Below, piece after piece: positions 6,419 through 40,397 of a DNA stretch of 64,000 nt. Origin of the DNA: Magnetococcales bacterium. GTDB lineage: Bacteria; Pseudomonadota; Magnetococcia; Magnetococcales; JADFYX01. The position numbers and the translations under genes are program-made. The DNA lies in the NCBI GenBank assembly GCA_002753565.1, contig PEAM01000004.1, forward strand, positions 1 to 64,000, given 5' to 3'. Under the pieces are notes generated by a model. It saw only the letters and a program-made list of their open reading frames with translations, searched no databases and was not told where the DNA came from. Position 1 is the stretch's first letter. Each line of letters begins with the position of its first letter.

Positions 6419-7333
6419 ATGAGCCACCCTGAAGCCAAACAAAAAATTTTGATTGTCGATGATGAACCGATCAACATTCAGGTTTTGAACGGTATTCTAA
6501 AGAGCGACTTTGAGATTACCTTTGCCTCCAACGGAATAAAGGCCTGCGAACTGGCAGAAACCACCCGACCCGACCTGATTCTTCTCGATGTCATGATGCC
6601 GGAAATGGATGGCTGGGAGGTGTGTAAACGCCTGAAAAACAACCCAGAAACCCACGATATCCCCATTATTTTTGTCACGGCCATGACCCAACCCCAAAAT
6701 GAGGTGAAAAGTCTGGAGTTGGGCGCTGTCGACTTTGTCACCAAACCCTTTCACCACGCTGTTGTCAAAGCCCGTGTCCATACCCATATGGAGTTGAAAA
6801 GGCAGCGGGATTATCTCCAAAACATCTCCTCCATGGATGGATTGACGGGGATTGCCAACCGCAGAAGGTTCGATGAACAGCTTGAAAAAGAGTGGCGTCG
6901 TGCCGCACGAAGCCAGACCAAGCTCTCCCTTCTTCTGATGGATATCGATCAGTTTAAACTCTACAACGACTATTATGGCCATCCTGAGGGAGATGACTGT
7001 CTGAAAAAGGTGGCCCGCTCTCTTGCCGACTCTCTGGAGAGACCTGGAGACCTGGTTGCTCGATATGGAGGGGAGGAGTTTGTCTTTATCTTGCCAGATA
7101 CCGGTCGTGACGGTGTGATTTTTTTAGCGGAGTCCCTGCGAAAAAACATCGAAAACCTGGGTATTGCCCACAAAAAATCCACTGTTTCTGAGGTGGTGAC
7201 CATCTCCTTGGGTGGAGTAACCGGTGTACCCAACATAAAGAGCTCCTATCAGACGTACATCAAGATAGCCGATGAGTGTCTCTATGAGGCCAAAGAGAAC
7301 GGGCGCAATCGGTCGGTTGTCCGCAGCATCTGA
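6419..7333 (+). CDS. Response regulator diguanylate cyclase (REC-GGDEF)
   Basis: This 304-residue PleD/WspR-like protein makes cyclic di-GMP from two GTP. The N-terminal receiver has Asp in LILLDVMMPEMDG and Lys in VTKPFHHA. The C-terminal GGDEF domain has the active signature GGEEF near residues 219-223. The product-inhibition I-site RPGD sits exactly five residues ahead of it, so feedback control by c-di-GMP is expected. It starts 2 nt after the hybrid kinase stop, which indicates translational coupling and suggests the kinase or the CheA-like protein as phosphodonor. A PilZ effector gene lies at 19,699. Confidence 0.93.
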   Translation: MSHPEAKQKILIVDDEPINIQVLNGILKSDFEITFASNGIKACELAETTRPDLILLDVMMPEMDGWEVCKRLKNNPETHDIPIIFVTAMTQPQNEVKSLELGAVDFVTKPFHHAVVKARVHTHMELKRQRDYLQNISSMDGLTGIANRRRFDEQLEKEWRRAARSQTKLSLLLMDIDQFKLYNDYYGHPEGDDCLKKVARSLADSLERPGDLVARYGGEEFVFILPDTGRDGVIFLAESLRKNIENLGIAHKKSTVSEVVTISLGGVTGVPNIKSSYQTYIKIADECLYEAKENGRNRSVVRSI

Positions 7334-19698: not shown

Positions 19699-20430
19699 AT
19701 GGAAAACACCTACTACGATAAAGTTCAAATCCTGCAAACCTTTCGTCAGGCTGCCAAAGAGGGTGTGTTGCTCACCATCCATCTTGGTGGTCAGGGTAAA
19801 CTCTCCTACGGGACCCGGCTCATCCCCTTTGCCGAAGAAAAGAGTAACGAGACCTCCGGCGTCAACCATGCCACAGACTGCCTGCTGATTGCACCTCTGG
19901 AGCCGACGGATGGCAACATAAAAATCCGCAAAGCGCATCAGATCAACCTGCAATTTTATCTGGGACTGCGCCAGTTCAAAACCACCGCCCTGTTTCAAAA
20001 GATCATCCCCATTGCCGGAGGACAGGCTATTCAACTCTCCCTGCCCAACCTGCTCCGCTATGATCAACGCCGAGACCAACGCAGGGTGGATATTCCTCAA
20101 GAGCTGGCTTTGATGGCCAAAGTACAAAAAAGGGGGGAAAAAGCGGTAACAGCTGATGTGGTGGATCTCTCCCCTGGTGGGCTATCCTTCTCCATTCCCA
20201 CCCAGCAAAAAAACTGGCTCTTTTCCAAAGGGGATAAGGTCAATGTCAGTATTAGCGGAAAAGTGCTGCTGGGAACCCCCATCACCACCTTTGGCAACGT
20301 CACCTACATCGCTACCGCTCGGGATAGCGGCAACATTCAACTGACCAAACAGCAGTATGGGGTTCAGTTTCAGATGCTCTCGGTTGCCAACGCCATGGCG
20401 GTGGATAAGCTGGTCAAACGGTTCGAATAA
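19699..20430 (+). CDS. PilZ domain protein (c-di-GMP receptor)
   Basis: A 243-residue YcgR-like two-domain protein. The N-terminal half (1-125) resembles the YcgR-N/PilZN flagellar-brake region. The C-terminal PilZ domain carries the c-di-GMP-binding motifs: an arginine-rich RRDQRRVDIP switch near residue 128 and DLSPGGLSF near 155. Both motifs are complete, so c-di-GMP binding is likely. Probable roles are flagellar or pilus control, in keeping with the GGDEF, FlgO and PilT genes in the window. It converges on ftsK with only 6 nt between stop codons. Confidence 0.85.
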   Translation: MENTYYDKVQILQTFRQAAKEGVLLTIHLGGQGKLSYGTRLIPFAEEKSNETSGVNHATDCLLIAPLEPTDGNIKIRKAHQINLQFYLGLRQFKTTALFQKIIPIAGGQAIQLSLPNLLRYDQRRDQRRVDIPQELALMAKVQKRGEKAVTADVVDLSPGGLSFSIPTQQKNWLFSKGDKVNVSISGKVLLGTPITTFGNVTYIATARDSGNIQLTKQQYGVQFQMLSVANAMAVDKLVKRFE

Positions 20431-32921: not shown

Positions 32922-33803
32922 ATGGCGGACACAGACGGAATGACCGATTCTCACGACTATTATCTGGATATCCCGCAGAAGGACCCCGGCTATCCTCTCA
33001 AGGGGTGTCATGCACTGGATTGGGGGATGAAGAACCGACTGACCAACATTTTCAACCCCAAAACCGGACGAACCGTCATGCTAGCGGTAGACCACGGCTA
33101 TTTTATGGGACCAACCACCGGTTTAGAGCGGATTGACCTCACCATCAATCCCCTGCTTCCCTATGCCGATACCCTGATGTGTACCCGAGGTATCCTCCGC
33201 TCCACCATCCCGGCAACCTTCAATAAAGGGGTCGTTTTGCGGGCCAGTGGCGGACCCAGCATCTTGAGCGAACTGTCCGACGAGCGTATTGCCGTCAACA
33301 TGGAAGATGCCATCCGTCTGAACAGCTCGGCGGTTGCCGTTCAGGTTTTCATCGGCGGAGAGTTCGAAACCACTTCGGTCCATAACATGACCCGTCTGGT
33401 CGATGCGGGCAATCGCTACGGCATGCCGGTTCTGGGGGTGACAGCGGTCGGTAAGCAGATGGCTCGAGATGCCAAATATATGCGTCTGGCGACGCGAATT
33501 TGTGCCGAATTGGGCTGCAGTTATGTAAAAACCTATTATGTGGAAAAAGATTTTGAGACCGTCACTGCCGCCTGTCCGGTACCCATTGTCATTGCCGGCG
33601 GAAAAAAACAGCCAGAACTCGACGCCCTGACCATGGCCTACAACGCCATTCAACAGGGGGCTGCTGGTGTGGACATGGGACGCAATATTTTCCAGTCCGA
33701 CGCCCCAGCCGCCATGATTCAAGCGGTCTCCCGCGTGGTTCACGAAGAGATGAAACCTCAAGAGGCCTTCGACTATTACGAAACCTTGAAAAACGAAAAA
33801 TAA
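32922..33803 (+). CDS. lsrF: 3-hydroxy-5-phosphonooxypentane-2,4-dione thiolase (LsrF-like)
   Basis: A class I aldolase-fold enzyme. In E. coli LsrF transfers an acetyl group from phosphorylated autoinducer-2 breakdown product to CoA. The 293-residue sequence is close to LsrF throughout: [65 protein letters not shown] with the Schiff-base lysine at residue 203, and [15 protein letters not shown]. Unlike E. coli, no lsrACDB, lsrK, lsrR or lsrG is adjacent, so the in vivo substrate may differ. ATG with AGGA 7 nt before; inverted repeat after the stop. Confidence 0.85.
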
Positions 33804-33923: not shown

Positions 33924-35726
33924 CTAATCGGTACGCCACAAACGACCGAGACAGTCTGGCCACCAATAGATGGTCTCCTCATCCTTACGGGTCAGCCCCG
34001 CTACCGGCCCATCCTGTGAAACCACAAAAGCCACCGCTCCCGGACACTGACCGACAAAATTAACCGCTGAGGCGTGTCGAGCACCCATTTTTTTAAAGTC
34101 AAGATGGATCGAAGGAAAAAAAGGCTCCTCCTCCCAAGAGACAATCTGCCCTTGCCAAGCGTTGGCATGGAGCATGGCACCAAACGTCAGGGGTTTTAAA
34201 CGGTCTGAAAGAACCAAGGCGCCATCCATATGGGTCAAGCGGGCAAAAAGCTCCACCAGATTGATCAACTCACTCTTCACAGTCCGAAAACTATCGATAT
34301 GGACATGGCGATCATGGGTCTTGGGGTGTCTCTTGATCCACTGCTCCAACCGGGCAAATTGAGAGAGAATAGCACTCCCTTCCGGGGCCTCCCGCAAAGG
34401 GAACCGAGAATCCATCCAGGGCATGGCCTGCTTTTGGGTGGCAGTGGGAAGCCAGATCACCGCGCCGCCGTGGCCGCCGGCTGAGATCTCCAGAAGCAGC
34501 CGATCGATCCAATCTCGATAGACCCGCCAATAGAGCATCTGCAACGACTCAAACTCAGGGTGTGTTTGAATCTCCTTGACCAGACTCCAAGCCAGGGGGC
34601 TCTCGGTAAAAGAGATGGGTTGAGCGTGGGTAAAAACCCCGGATGAAAACTGCCCAATAGAGGTTGCCCCACGGAAAAGATGGAGATTGCCCGCCTCCTT
34701 CGCTGCCACAGTCAACGAGCCGATGGCCGGACGGGCAAAGGTGTGGGCATCAAAGCGATGCAGCCCCTGTTCGGGAAAGTGCAACACACCAACAATATCC
34801 AACTGGCTCAATGGGTCCGCCACAGGAACCACCACCAGGGTGGTCTCCATGGGATCGAAGGAGGGGGCCAGCGCCACCAGGGAGTCGACTTGAAGCGGCA
34901 GGGGGTTTTCTAGAATCAGAGGATGGATACCCTGCTGCTCCCTCTTGGTATTCATTTCGGCAAGATCGGTCATCAGTGTGACGCTGACCTGAATGGGGTG
35001 GTCCTCTTTTCGGTGCATGCTGGCATAGTAGACTGCATCCAGAATAGCCCGAATCTGCTCTACTCTCGGTGGTTTACCTTCTCTTCGACCATCCGAGCTC
35101 TGCCAGAACTGAATAATCTGCTTGAGAAGGGGATCATTAAAAACCACCTTTTCTGTCTGGCTGCCCACCACCTGGATCAACTCTCGCTGCACCTTCAAAA
35201 GAGCATCTTCCCCCCGCCTTCTCTCGATGATACCGGCGAGAATATTGGCTAGAGCCATCAAGGCCCGCTCTTCATGCTCTTCACAGACATGCCCTTCAGG
35301 AACATACAGGTTGATCACCCCCAAAACCTGATCCCCCGAGAGAACCGGTACACAGTAGTGACCATGGTCTGCCATCCCCCTAAATCGAATTTCATGACGA
35401 TAATCAACACATCCAGTAAAAAGAATTTCACTCCTCTCTGCTGCCCGCCCACATAAACAGCTGCCGAAGGGGACTCGGGCGCACTTTTTCACCAGCTCTT
35501 CGGGAAGATCCTGATGGGCTGCCAAAACCAGAGTATTATGGAGTGGATCAACCAGGAAGATACTCCCCTTGGCATGAAAGGCCAGGTCGGGAATGGTCAG
35601 CATAAGATCCAGAAAATTCTGCAGATGCTCCTCCAGGGTCAGCGGTTCCAGAGAGAAGCGCAGCGCCGCACTGACAATCTCTTGCAGATGCCTGTTTTGT
35701 TCAATAATTCTGTCAATTGCAGTCAA
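33924..35726 (-). CDS. GAF - DACNV-like sensor - diadenylate cyclase (c-di-AMP synthase)
   Basis: A 600-residue soluble protein. A GAF domain (about 20-170, with cysteines in FGSCLCGRAA) is followed by a middle region (about 215-470) resembling the putative sensor domain DACNV: ILDAVYYASMHRKED, LPLQVDSLVALAPSFDP and GHGGAVIWLP. The C-terminus (481-600) is a DisA_N-type DAC domain with DGA at 501-503, GARH at 548-551 (usually GTRH), and AVAFVVSQDG. These are the two nucleotide-binding signatures of enzymes that join two ATP into cyclic di-AMP. RHA replaces the usual RHR, so activity needs testing. It reads alone, convergent with lsrF and divergent from a multi-pass membrane protein. Confidence 0.82.
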   Translation of the reverse strand: MTAIDRIIEQNRHLQEIVSAALRFSLEPLTLEEHLQNFLDLMLTIPDLAFHAKGSIFLVDPLHNTLVLAAHQDLPEELVKKCARVPFGSCLCGRAAERSEILFTGCVDYRHEIRFRGMADHGHYCVPVLSGDQVLGVINLYVPEGHVCEEHEERALMALANILAGIIERRRGEDALLKVQRELIQVVGSQTEKVVFNDPLLKQIIQFWQSSDGRREGKPPRVEQIRAILDAVYYASMHRKEDHPIQVSVTLMTDLAEMNTKREQQGIHPLILENPLPLQVDSLVALAPSFDPMETTLVVVPVADPLSQLDIVGVLHFPEQGLHRFDAHTFARPAIGSLTVAAKEAGNLHLFRGATSIGQFSSGVFTHAQPISFTESPLAWSLVKEIQTHPEFESLQMLYWRVYRDWIDRLLLEISAGGHGGAVIWLPTATQKQAMPWMDSRFPLREAPEGSAILSQFARLEQWIKRHPKTHDRHVHIDSFRTVKSELINLVELFARLTHMDGALVLSDRLKPLTFGAMLHANAWQGQIVSWEEEPFFPSIHLDFKKMGARHASAVNFVGQCPGAVAFVVSQDGPVAGLTRKDEETIYWWPDCLGRLWRTD

Positions 35727-35991
35727 AGGCCCAGCCTCTCCAGCCGATCAGGAGTGCCGGCACAATACCGGAAATCCCCCTTCTACTTTGCTATTCTCAA
35801 CTTAGCAGAGAAAAAAAACAACCAAAAGCCGACACCACCTGTTTATCCCCAACCAAAGAGGAGAGCAGGAAGCCTGTTTGCAACGGCCCATAGTCCACTC
35901 AAAAGGGTGACCCCTACAAATTATTTTGTTGATCAGGTAGCATGAGCGGGCCTCTTCATTCTCATTGACCAACAGGAGCCAGCAAGAGACC

Positions 35992-38031: not shown

Positions 38032-38510
38032 CAACCGGCCCCTTCCAAGAAAAACAATTCCATTAATATTATTTAATGAAAGTATAACTGGTATTACTTA
38101 ATGAAAGTATAACCGGTTATATAAAAAAATCATTCAATTTATGCCATCATTATTGTAATATACAAAGTGAATAGAGCAAATAACAGGGTGTTTTTGGCCA
38201 AAAAAGCGTCTTTCCGGCCTGTTATCTCATCGATTATTCAATAAAAGTGCAATCGACCTGGCTTTCTTTTCCTGGAATTCCATCTCTTTTCACCTTAAAA
38301 TCAACGAATAATCGCTGACTATCGATAAATGATCACCGGGCAGAATAATTCATCTATATTATTCAATATTCTAATATTTACAATAAGTTGCAACAGTTTT
38401 TTTATCATAATATTAACTTTATCTGTAATCCACACTTCCCGGTTTACCGATAAACCCCTATATCCGGCGGGTAAACCGCAGTCATAATGAATCGTCGAGG
38501 AGATTACGAG
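38032..38510. promoter_or_regulatory. AT-rich control region upstream of the envelope operon
   Basis: This 479-bp gene-free region is markedly more AT-rich than its surroundings. At 38,073-38,092 and 38,098-38,117 lies a tandem pair of 20-bp repeats (TTAATGAAAGTATAACYGGT) with one mismatch and a 25-bp period. Further dyads around ATCGATTATTC and TATCGATAAATGATC follow (38,230-38,335). The arrangement suggests regulator binding sites and at least one promoter for the downstream operon. Confidence 0.5.
38073..38117. repeat. Tandem 20-bp repeat pair (25-bp period)
   Basis: Two copies of TTAATGAAAGTATAACYGGT separated by 5 bp, differing at one base. The 25-bp period is about two and a half helical turns. 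Confidence 0.85.
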
Positions 38511-39302
38511 ATGAAGGATTTACTGGTACAACTAAAAAAACAGGGAGGAAAGGTTCTGCTCGTCGGCATACTGGCAACCGGACTGACGGCCTGTGGGGGG
38601 CACACCATCGACCCTACAATGAGTCTCATGCCAACCTATGAAATGCCGGCGGCCGTTGTGGTTCAATCACCACCGGTTGCCATGCAGGGCCATAACAATT
38701 TTGGCTACAGCCCTATTTCATCTGGGGCACACTATGGTGCGACTCAACAGCGCAAAAACTTTAGCGCCCACAGCAACGGGTATCAGTCTGCTCCAACCCA
38801 AAGCATGCCCAGAACCCTCTCCAACCCCGATGGTTCGACCGTCATTCAACAGTCGCCCATTACGGTTCAACGGCCCTCTATCGTGGTACCACAACAGCCG
38901 ATCTGGGTTGGCAATCCGCCCATGCCGATTCCTCAACCGCCTGTTGTGATCAATCAGCCGCCGGTGGTCTATGACCAACCCAACATTACGGTACGCCCCC
39001 CACAGGTTGAGTTGAACGTCCACCCTCCAGAGGTTGAGTTCCACCATCCTCCGGTTCGTTCTGCACCCATGATGATGCAACCCATGGTGATGCAACCCAT
39101 GCCGACTCAAATGATGAACTGTGTGCCTGCTCAAGCCTACATGCAGCATTCGAATTGCTACCAGCAGCCGTATCAGCAGCAGTATCAGCACCAACAACAG
39201 CCGCCCATGACCATGACGGCACCAAGCCAACAGAGAATGATGGCACCCTCTCAGGTGGTTCCGACCCAACCCAGGAGGGAAGATTATCTGCCACCCAAGT
39301 AA
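38511..39302 (+). CDS. Pro/Gln/Met-rich lipoprotein of unknown function
   Basis: A 263-residue predicted lipoprotein with lipobox LATGLTAC (Cys near residue 28). After that the sequence is low-complexity: Pro-Val-rich phrases (VVINQPPVVYDQPNITVRPP, VHPPEVEFHHPPV) and a C-terminal part rich in Met, Gln and Tyr (MMMQPMVMQPM, QQPYQQQYQHQQQ). Two cysteines (NCVPA, SNC) lie near residues 200-215. The start is set by GAGGAG 9 nt before the ATG at 38,511; the frame extends upstream to 38,487. First gene of an envelope operon. No fold or function is recognised. Confidence 0.7.
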   Translation: MKDLLVQLKKQGGKVLLVGILATGLTACGGHTIDPTMSLMPTYEMPAAVVVQSPPVAMQGHNNFGYSPISSGAHYGATQQRKNFSAHSNGYQSAPTQSMPRTLSNPDGSTVIQQSPITVQRPSIVVPQQPIWVGNPPMPIPQPPVVINQPPVVYDQPNITVRPPQVELNVHPPEVEFHHPPVRSAPMMMQPMVMQPMPTQMMNCVPAQAYMQHSNCYQQPYQQQYQHQQQPPMTMTAPSQQRMMAPSQVVPTQPRREDYLPPK

Positions 39303-39351
39303 GAGATAACAGCCAAACCATTTTCAACCATCAGTAAGGAATGTATCTGCT

Positions 39352-39750
39352 ATGAAGAACGCCACCTCACTTTTTTCAATCCTGGCCCTGGCCACCACCC
39401 TTACCTTGGGGGCAGGCGCGGCACAGGCGGGGATGCTTCAGGTTCCTCATAATGCACAGGATCGGGTGATTGTCTATACCTACAAAACCCAGTTCGCCCA
39501 TCCCATCGACTACTGGTGGCACTTGAACCCTTCAGAGTCCGGGTCATGGGACTATTTTTCTCCAGTCAGAGACGTCGCGCAGCCTCTACCGGTAGAGCGG
39601 GGAACCCTGCCAACCTTTGGCACGCGCAAACCAGGTACCAGATCTCAACCAAGCACTTTACAGAAAGCTAGGAATCCATTTTCTCGTGCAGTGTATGGAA
39701 ACCCAGCCGTCACAGGAACACCTCCTGCCTATCAGCAGGCCCATTACTAA
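39352..39750 (+). CDS. Small secreted protein, envelope operon
   Basis: A 132-residue protein with a clear Sec signal peptide (cleavage after AGAAQA, about residue 26). The mature part has an aromatic cluster (HPIDYWWHLNPSESGSWDYF) and a Pro/Thr-rich tail. AAGGA lies about 10 nt before the ATG. It sits between the lipoprotein and the Met/Gln-repeat protein in the same direction. Not recognised. Confidence 0.65.
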   Translation: MKNATSLFSILALATTLTLGAGAAQAGMLQVPHNAQDRVIVYTYKTQFAHPIDYWWHLNPSESGSWDYFSPVRDVAQPLPVERGTLPTFGTRKPGTRSQPSTLQKARNPFSRAVYGNPAVTGTPPAYQQAHY

Positions 39751-39785
39751 CGCGGCTATCAACACAAGAGCAAAAGGGAGTAAAC

Positions 39786-40397
39786 ATGAAAACACTTGTT
39801 CGAAAACGCATCAAAACCACCGTGCTCGCCGGGGCCGCACTCATTGCAGCCTCCGTCATGGCACCCCAACAGGCAAAAGCGGATGCGACGTTGGCAGCCA
39901 TTTTGGGTGGTTCAGCTCTTCTGGGGCTGATTTTCCACGCCAACCAACCTATGCCGTCCCCATCCTATCAAAAGGCAAGCGAGATGTTTTCGCATCCAGG
40001 TTATGGCACTACGGTTCGCTATAGACAGCCTCATCGCATGTCTTCCATGCCGTATTACCCCAACTATGCTCCGGTTGTCTATGCATCCGTAGCGCCGGTT
40101 GCCATGCAGCCAAGCCCTTATTATCAGATGGCTCAACCGGTCAACTTTCAAGTAACCGCTCCTCATGGCATGTATCCCCAGAGCGTTTATCACTCCAGTG
40201 CCAACATGAACTATCCTGCGGCGGCACCGGTTATGCAACAACCCATGCAGCAGCCGATGCAACAGACCATGCATCAGCCCATGCAACAGATGCAGCAGAC
40301 CATGCATCAGCCTGTCCAAGCACAACAGATGTCCTACAGTCCGTATGGCATGGGCATGCAACAGCCTCAATTCGGAGCCGTCTATCCTCAGTTCTGA
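39786..40397 (+). CDS. Secreted Met/Gln-repeat protein, envelope operon
   Basis: A 203-residue protein with an N-terminal signal peptide (cleavage after QQAKA, about residue 32), a short hydrophobic stretch (LAAILGGSALLGLIF), and a mature region rich in Tyr, Pro, Met and Gln. Residues 150-178 carry a four-residue MQQP/MHQP repeat. GGGAG lies 5 nt before the ATG, and an intrinsic terminator follows, closing the first three-gene unit. Function unknown; methionine-rich surfaces may bind metal, but this is speculation. Confidence 0.65.
   Translation: MKTLVRKRIKTTVLAGAALIAASVMAPQQAKADATLAAILGGSALLGLIFHANQPMPSPSYQKASEMFSHPGYGTTVRYRQPHRMSSMPYYPNYAPVVYASVAPVAMQPSPYYQMAQPVNFQVTAPHGMYPQSVYHSSANMNYPAAAPVMQQPMQQPMQQTMHQPMQQMQQTMHQPVQAQQMSYSPYGMGMQQPQFGAVYPQF
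40233..40317 (+). repeat. 12-nt tandem repeats coding MQQP/MHQP
   Basis: Degenerate 12-nt units (ATGCARCARCCN) run in frame within the secreted Met/Gln-repeat gene. They are coding repeats and may vary in number between strains. Confidence 0.75.

Follow-up and report, generated by a model that had tools for sequence, protein, structure and literature searches.

A GAF-DACNV-DAC protein of Magnetococcales with an altered active site, a candidate c-di-AMP cyclase

Architecture and fold of the encoded protein

The window, the whole stretch of 64,000 nucleotides of a Magnetococcales genome that was analysed, contains on its minus strand an intact gene for a protein of 600 residues, comprised of an N-terminal GAF domain, a central DACNV domain and a C-terminal domain of predicted diadenylate cyclase (DAC) fold (Table 1). 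Around it are encoded an LsrF-type thiolase, a NIT-type chemoreceptor and a radical SAM protein, and there is also a membrane-like ORF. The three sensor and catalytic regions proposed by the earlier note were all recovered, and the two motifs that it had placed at residues 501-503 (DGA) and 548-551 (GARH) are found there in the translation. In the Pfam scan of the full protein DACNV, a named Pfam domain, scored 53.3 bits against a cut-off of 27, and the GAF fold was matched by Foldseek to 3trc and 3ci6 and to the GAF domains of PtsP and fRMsr.

Table 1. Features at and around the DAC-like gene, in positions of the window
Feature	Position	Strand	Basis
REC-GGDEF gene	6419-7330		
PilZ gene	19699-20427		
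LsrF-type 3-hydroxy-5-phosphonooxypentane-2,4-dione thiolase, convergent with the DAC gene	32922-33803	+	NCBIfam, 504 bits
Whole gene, GAF-DACNV-DAC, 600 aa (start TTG at 35726, stop at 33924)	33924-35726	-	ORF; full-length tblastn match in own genome
DAC-fold domain with inserted helical pair, about residues 377-595	33942-34598	-	AlphaFold2 model; Foldseek
SQDG, residues 570-573, counterpart of SEET in CdaA	34008-34019	-	Alignment
GARHA, residues 548-552: RH kept, Thr before RH replaced by Ala, third RHR residue replaced by Ala	34071-34085	-	Alignment
DGA motif, residues 501-503	34218-34226	-	Alignment
First DAC strand GGAVIWL, residues 420-426, corresponding to GGLIVIE of CdaA	34449-34469	-	Alignment; AlphaFold2 model
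DACNV domain, residues 219-316	34779-35072	-	Pfam PF21751, 53-57 bits (cut-off 27)
GAF domain, residues 30-168	35223-35639	-	Pfam GAF_2, 43.8 bits (cut-off 28.6); Foldseek
Cys/His-rich stretch of GAF, C90-L-C92 ... H121-G-H123-Y-C125	35352-35459	-	Orthologue comparison
Probable ribosome-binding site GGAGAGG, 7 bases upstream of TTG	35734-35740	-	Sequence
Tandem small ORFs	38487-40397	+	

The profile search for a DisA_N-type domain that the earlier note had proposed returned a weak match for Pfam DAC (PF02457) over residues 490-573, with 18.2 bits and an E value of 0.002, below the cut-off of 27. By sequence, neither phmmer nor a profile built from 36 relatives reached a DAC in the PDB, and when profiles were compared with 15 CdaA-type proteins the probability was 40% over 27 columns around G-x-RH. 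Because the fold search with the full-length protein was dominated by matches of the GAF domain, the DAC part was modelled separately. The AlphaFold2 model of residues 366-600, built on 46 relatives, has a pLDDT of 88 and a pTM of 0.87, and among the best 50 PDB matches listed by Foldseek all are diadenylate cyclases, with E values from 7e-5, including M. pneumoniae CdaM, CdaA proteins, S. aureus DacA and the DisA proteins of T. maritima and mycobacteria. Sequence comparison alone would thus leave the DAC call doubtful; it is the predicted structure that decides for a DAC fold, to a degree that is as good as certain.

The window protein shares this fold with CdaA/DacA of B. subtilis, L. monocytogenes and S. 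aureus, and the GG-strand, DGA, G-x-RH and S-x-x-x elements occur in the same order; aligned by eye with CdaA, the pairs are GGAVIWL/GGLIVIE, DGA/DGA, GARHASA/GTRHRAA and VVSQDG/VVSEET. It differs in having GAF and DACNV domains in place of the N-terminal transmembrane helices, a helix pair inserted between the first DAC strand and DGA (about residues 450-497), no third Arg of RHR, and Ala for the Thr before RH. The fold is likewise shared with DisA of T. maritima (3c1y) and M. tuberculosis, both structural matches, whereas the DAC domain of the window protein lies at the C terminus and not at the N terminus, and no C-terminal HhH DNA-binding domain, a trait of DisA, was found in its Pfam scan.

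Relatives, paralogues and the c-di-AMP phosphodiesterase

DACNV scored over the cut-off in 43 of 48 Magnetococcia genomes. In a sample of 397 Pseudomonadota it was found in 29 of the 30 Magnetococcia and in none of the 367 others. PF02457 itself passed the cut-off in 44 of these 397 genomes, most of them from a single other family whose members have short CdaA-type proteins, and it gave no match in an E. coli genome used as control. The lineage is proteobacterial and c-di-AMP has hardly been studied there, as the earlier note had it, and this is accepted; a proteobacterial DAC as such is not new, since other Pseudomonadota carry ordinary CdaA-type DACs. No DAC type besides the DACNV-DAC proteins was found in the Magnetococcia genomes. 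In f18, another family of Pseudomonadota (G051, G054 and others), the CdaA-type DAC is common, and no PgpH-type protein scored over the cut-off in the sample.

Relatives from named genomes belong to Magnetococcales, including Ca. Magnetaquicoccus inordinatus, with more distant members in Thermodesulfobacteriota, in records labelled Myxococcota, and in one Methylobacter and one Nitrospira; the Nitrospira protein reaches 27.4 bits for Pfam DAC and so passes the cut-off of 27. These DACNV-DAC proteins (PF21751 plus PF02457) combine, as the window protein does, DACNV over the cut-off with a C-terminal DAC fold, and the core of ~400 residues in the Thermodesulfobacteriota, Methylobacter and Nitrospira members aligns with the window protein end to end. 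The relatives found outside Magnetococcia are devoid of an extra N-terminal domain, whereas the window protein adds GAF and has changed the Thr before RH. That the window protein belongs to the DACNV-DAC family and has a DAC fold is as good as certain. No use of the term DACNV was found in the literature searched. The 2023 survey by Galperin (J. Bacteriol. 205:e00023-23), cited in PMC13092281, is seemingly the most relevant one, and an earlier listing of the GAF- and REC-PAS-DACNV-DAC architectures in it is possible.

Two more genes of this family lie elsewhere in the genome of the window, one each on contigs C13 and C49. They share a REC-PAS-DACNV-DAC architecture (REC at 95 and 92 bits) and by their domains would encode response regulators with a DAC output. 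In a tree with outgroups the GAF type and the REC-PAS type each form one clade. Beside these, a third type, single and undecorated, is found in most other genera. The GAF-type clade is represented in families f1, f2, f6 and f14, and one of its members (L077) is without a GAF domain; f1 and f14 genomes have REC-PAS copies, usually together with a GAF-type copy, and none of the single type. The C49 copy precedes a RecX-like ORF (named by eye) and alaS, all within L041 1-4334; in sister genomes the corresponding copy directly precedes alaS. The plan of both paralogues, with a receiver upstream of a cyclic-dinucleotide cyclase, is that of REC-GGDEF proteins of the PleD/WspR type, with the difference that their output is DAC rather than GGDEF; in the window copy GAF takes the place of REC.

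A PgpH-type 7TM-7TMR_HD protein is present exactly once in each of the 30 Magnetococcia and over the cut-off in 1 of the 367 other sampled Pseudomonadota. PgpH is a c-di-AMP phosphodiesterase in the characterised cases. The copy of the window's own genome, encoded outside the window between phoH-like and ybeY-like ORFs (named by eye), has the full set of 7TMR-HDED, 7TM and HD domains with an intact H...HD site, and matches the HD domain of Listeria Lmo1466 (PgpH; 4s1b) with an E value of 1e-60; it would be the partner of the window protein by inference only. Retention of PgpH in every genome argues that some DAC there works, although the co-occurrence of DACNV and PgpH, falling within one clade, is not independent evidence. 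A working c-di-AMP pathway in Magnetococcia is therefore likely, with the DACNV-DACs as the only synthase candidates found.

Neither the c-di-AMP riboswitch RF00379 nor the CdAMP_rec receptor PF06153 was found in the 30 Magnetococcia. The earlier note had proposed a search for DHH-DHHA1 phosphodiesterases and RCK_C receptors; both are present, and neither counts for c-di-AMP. TrkA_C (RCK_C) domains are common and, as they also occur in E. coli, are uninformative. A standalone DHH-DHHA1 protein of 312 aa is encoded on the window's contig, outside the window (G000:C7:106192; L178 1681-2619, minus strand), and was rejected as a c-di-AMP phosphodiesterase, its best solved relative being PggH (PDB 7d62, E value 2e-138), a pGpG hydrolase of the c-di-GMP pathway. 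Other DHHA1 matches of this genome are AlaRS- and RecJ-like by length.

The altered phosphate site and its possible consequences

In an alignment of 51 sequences the D and A of DGA, G-x-R-H and S-x-D-G are invariant, so that the conservation of DGA and RH anticipated for orthologues holds for the residues D, A, R and H; the G of DGA is replaced by Cys in one copy. In Magnetococcia the third RHR residue varies among N, S, T, A, G, H and I and is Arg in none of 65 copies, which makes RHA a family trait. Elsewhere it is mostly N in Thermodesulfobacteriota, and R in Methylobacter and Nitrospira (GTRHR). The change of RHR to RHA pointed out in the earlier note is thus real, but it is no oddity of the window gene, since every copy examined from Magnetococcia and Thermodesulfobacteriota lacks the third Arg.

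Specific to the GAF-type clade, as judged from the alignment, is another change in the active site, Thr to Ala at position 549, immediately before RH, which the earlier note had not pointed out. Among 14 copies of this clade the residue is Ala in ten (Ala549 in the window protein), Met in two, and Ser and Thr in one each. It is Thr in 68 of the 69 other copies, namely 25/25 of the REC-PAS type, 25/26 of the single type and 18/18 of an outgroup set that includes one fragment itself from Magnetococcales (L135). All 13 genomes with a GAF-type copy also carry another copy with intact TRH; genome G014, with a single DACNV copy, has MRH. Across seven genomes of f14, a family with all three paralogues, the DAC core (498-580) is 92% identical in the GAF type and 84% and 95% identical in the two REC-PAS groups, and there is no sign of decay in the alignments of the GAF-type core, which is as conserved as that of the paralogues.

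In S. aureus DacA the Thr before RHR contacts the phosphates of ApCpp (PMC6368335). The third Arg is present in all biochemically studied DACs (PMC4568413), and replacement of RHR by AAA abolishes the activity of M. tuberculosis DacA and B. thuringiensis CdaS (PMC3328451, PMC4568413); the literature searched contained no experiment on the third Arg alone. With the third Arg replaced throughout and the preceding Thr in one clade, the DACNV-DAC family offers a natural test of which residues of the RHR site are needed. As the full RHR and the preceding Thr are both missing, the window protein is not filed as a proven diadenylate cyclase.

On balance, the window protein is read as a cytosolic c-di-AMP cyclase that is gated by GAF and DACNV and has a changed phosphate site, its predicted activity being about an even bet. 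The GAF domain, with its Cys/His cluster, and DACNV would determine how two DAC domains, each with one ATP, are placed head to head; two phosphodiester bonds would form, and the released c-di-AMP would later be hydrolysed by PgpH. The C13 and C49 paralogues would carry out the same reaction under the control of phosphorylated receiver domains. Having lost the Thr that contacts the phosphate, the GAF type probably works more slowly or with different tuning instead of being inactive, since its DAC core is as constrained as that of the paralogues.

The main rival, which ranks behind, is that the GAF-type copy has lost catalysis and binds ATP or c-di-AMP, either regulating its REC-PAS-DAC (or single) paralogues via mixed dimers or reading c-di-AMP. 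This is the less probable account, though one to be taken seriously, as two active-site positions are changed, one of them specifically in this clade, a paralogue with intact TRH stands alongside in 13/13 genomes, and DGA, RH, SQDG and the core are kept, as expected if nucleotide binding was retained. However, the loss of one Thr hydroxyl often slows enzymes without killing them, the single-copy members, which would have to work unaided if c-di-AMP is made in this class, are devoid of the third Arg as well, and the only DACNV copy of G014 has MRH. A larger scheme, rather unlikely as a whole, is that Magnetococcales possess a branched c-di-AMP network built solely of DACNV-DACs, in which two response-regulator synthases would be joined by a GAF copy turned into an ATP/c-di-AMP-binding regulator of its siblings, with one PgpH balancing synthesis.

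With a phosphate site unlike that of known DACs, the whole DACNV-DAC branch could also make another product, such as pApA, a linear dinucleotide or another cyclic nucleotide, and the replacement of the third Arg by no fixed residue throughout the Magnetococcia and Thermodesulfobacteriota copies would fit such a change. This is improbable, given that the distant Methylobacter and Nitrospira members keep GTRHR, with the Nitrospira protein above the Pfam DAC cut-off, and that PgpH is universal in the sampled class. That the C terminus is a chance resemblance without a DAC domain, or the gene a decaying pseudogene, is suggested by the Pfam score under the cut-off and the weak CdaA profile comparison, yet is scarcely credible and already contradicted by motif residues invariant across phyla, a strongly conserved DAC core, DACs as the sole structural matches listed, and an intact ORF with a ribosome-binding site.

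Sensor domain, gene neighbourhood and a second cyclic dinucleotide

The GAF signature C-L-C-G ... H-G-H-Y-C is kept in orthologues and recurs in the GAF domains of several other large proteins that this genome encodes (L005-L008); tblastn found ~14 further GAF-like matches in the genome. This pattern suggests that the Cys/His GAF of the window protein may sense redox state, a metal, or a cofactor or other small ligand, and CLCG...HGHYC seems to mark a redox or metal sensor module that has expanded in this lineage.

An LsrF-like thiolase also lies near the GAF-type DAC gene in five f14 contigs, in differing orientation; as a functional clue the neighbourhood is only weak. A CBASS or other defence role found no support, as PADLOC gave no match for the window protein and defence neighbours are lacking; the search for a phage or plasmid origin likewise gave no match.

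Studies of c-di-AMP have largely dealt with DisA and CdaA from Gram-positive bacteria. Magnetococcia would add a class of magnetotactic proteobacteria with a predicted c-di-AMP synthase-phosphodiesterase pair, in some families of which the synthase has multiplied to three paralogues with different gating, including two that are two-component response regulators. If this is true, two-component systems would control c-di-AMP directly, as they do c-di-GMP through REC-GGDEF proteins, and the two messengers would stand side by side in the same cells. The window does encode synthesis and reading of c-di-GMP, as the earlier note had stated, through the REC-GGDEF and PilZ genes of Table 1, and c-di-AMP and c-di-GMP plausibly coexist in the host. 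On contig C13 the REC-PAS-DACNV-DAC gene begins ~20 bases after a REC-GGDEF gene on the same strand (L056 1727-4771), an arrangement that is possibly a two-messenger operon. A REC-GGDEF gene beside a DAC was not seen in the other DAC neighbourhoods examined, and no general claim is therefore attached to this tandem.

Elsewhere in the window lies the run of tandem small ORFs listed in Table 1, two of which were checked and gave no Pfam match; their products are rich in Pro, Gln and Met and bear signal-like N termini.
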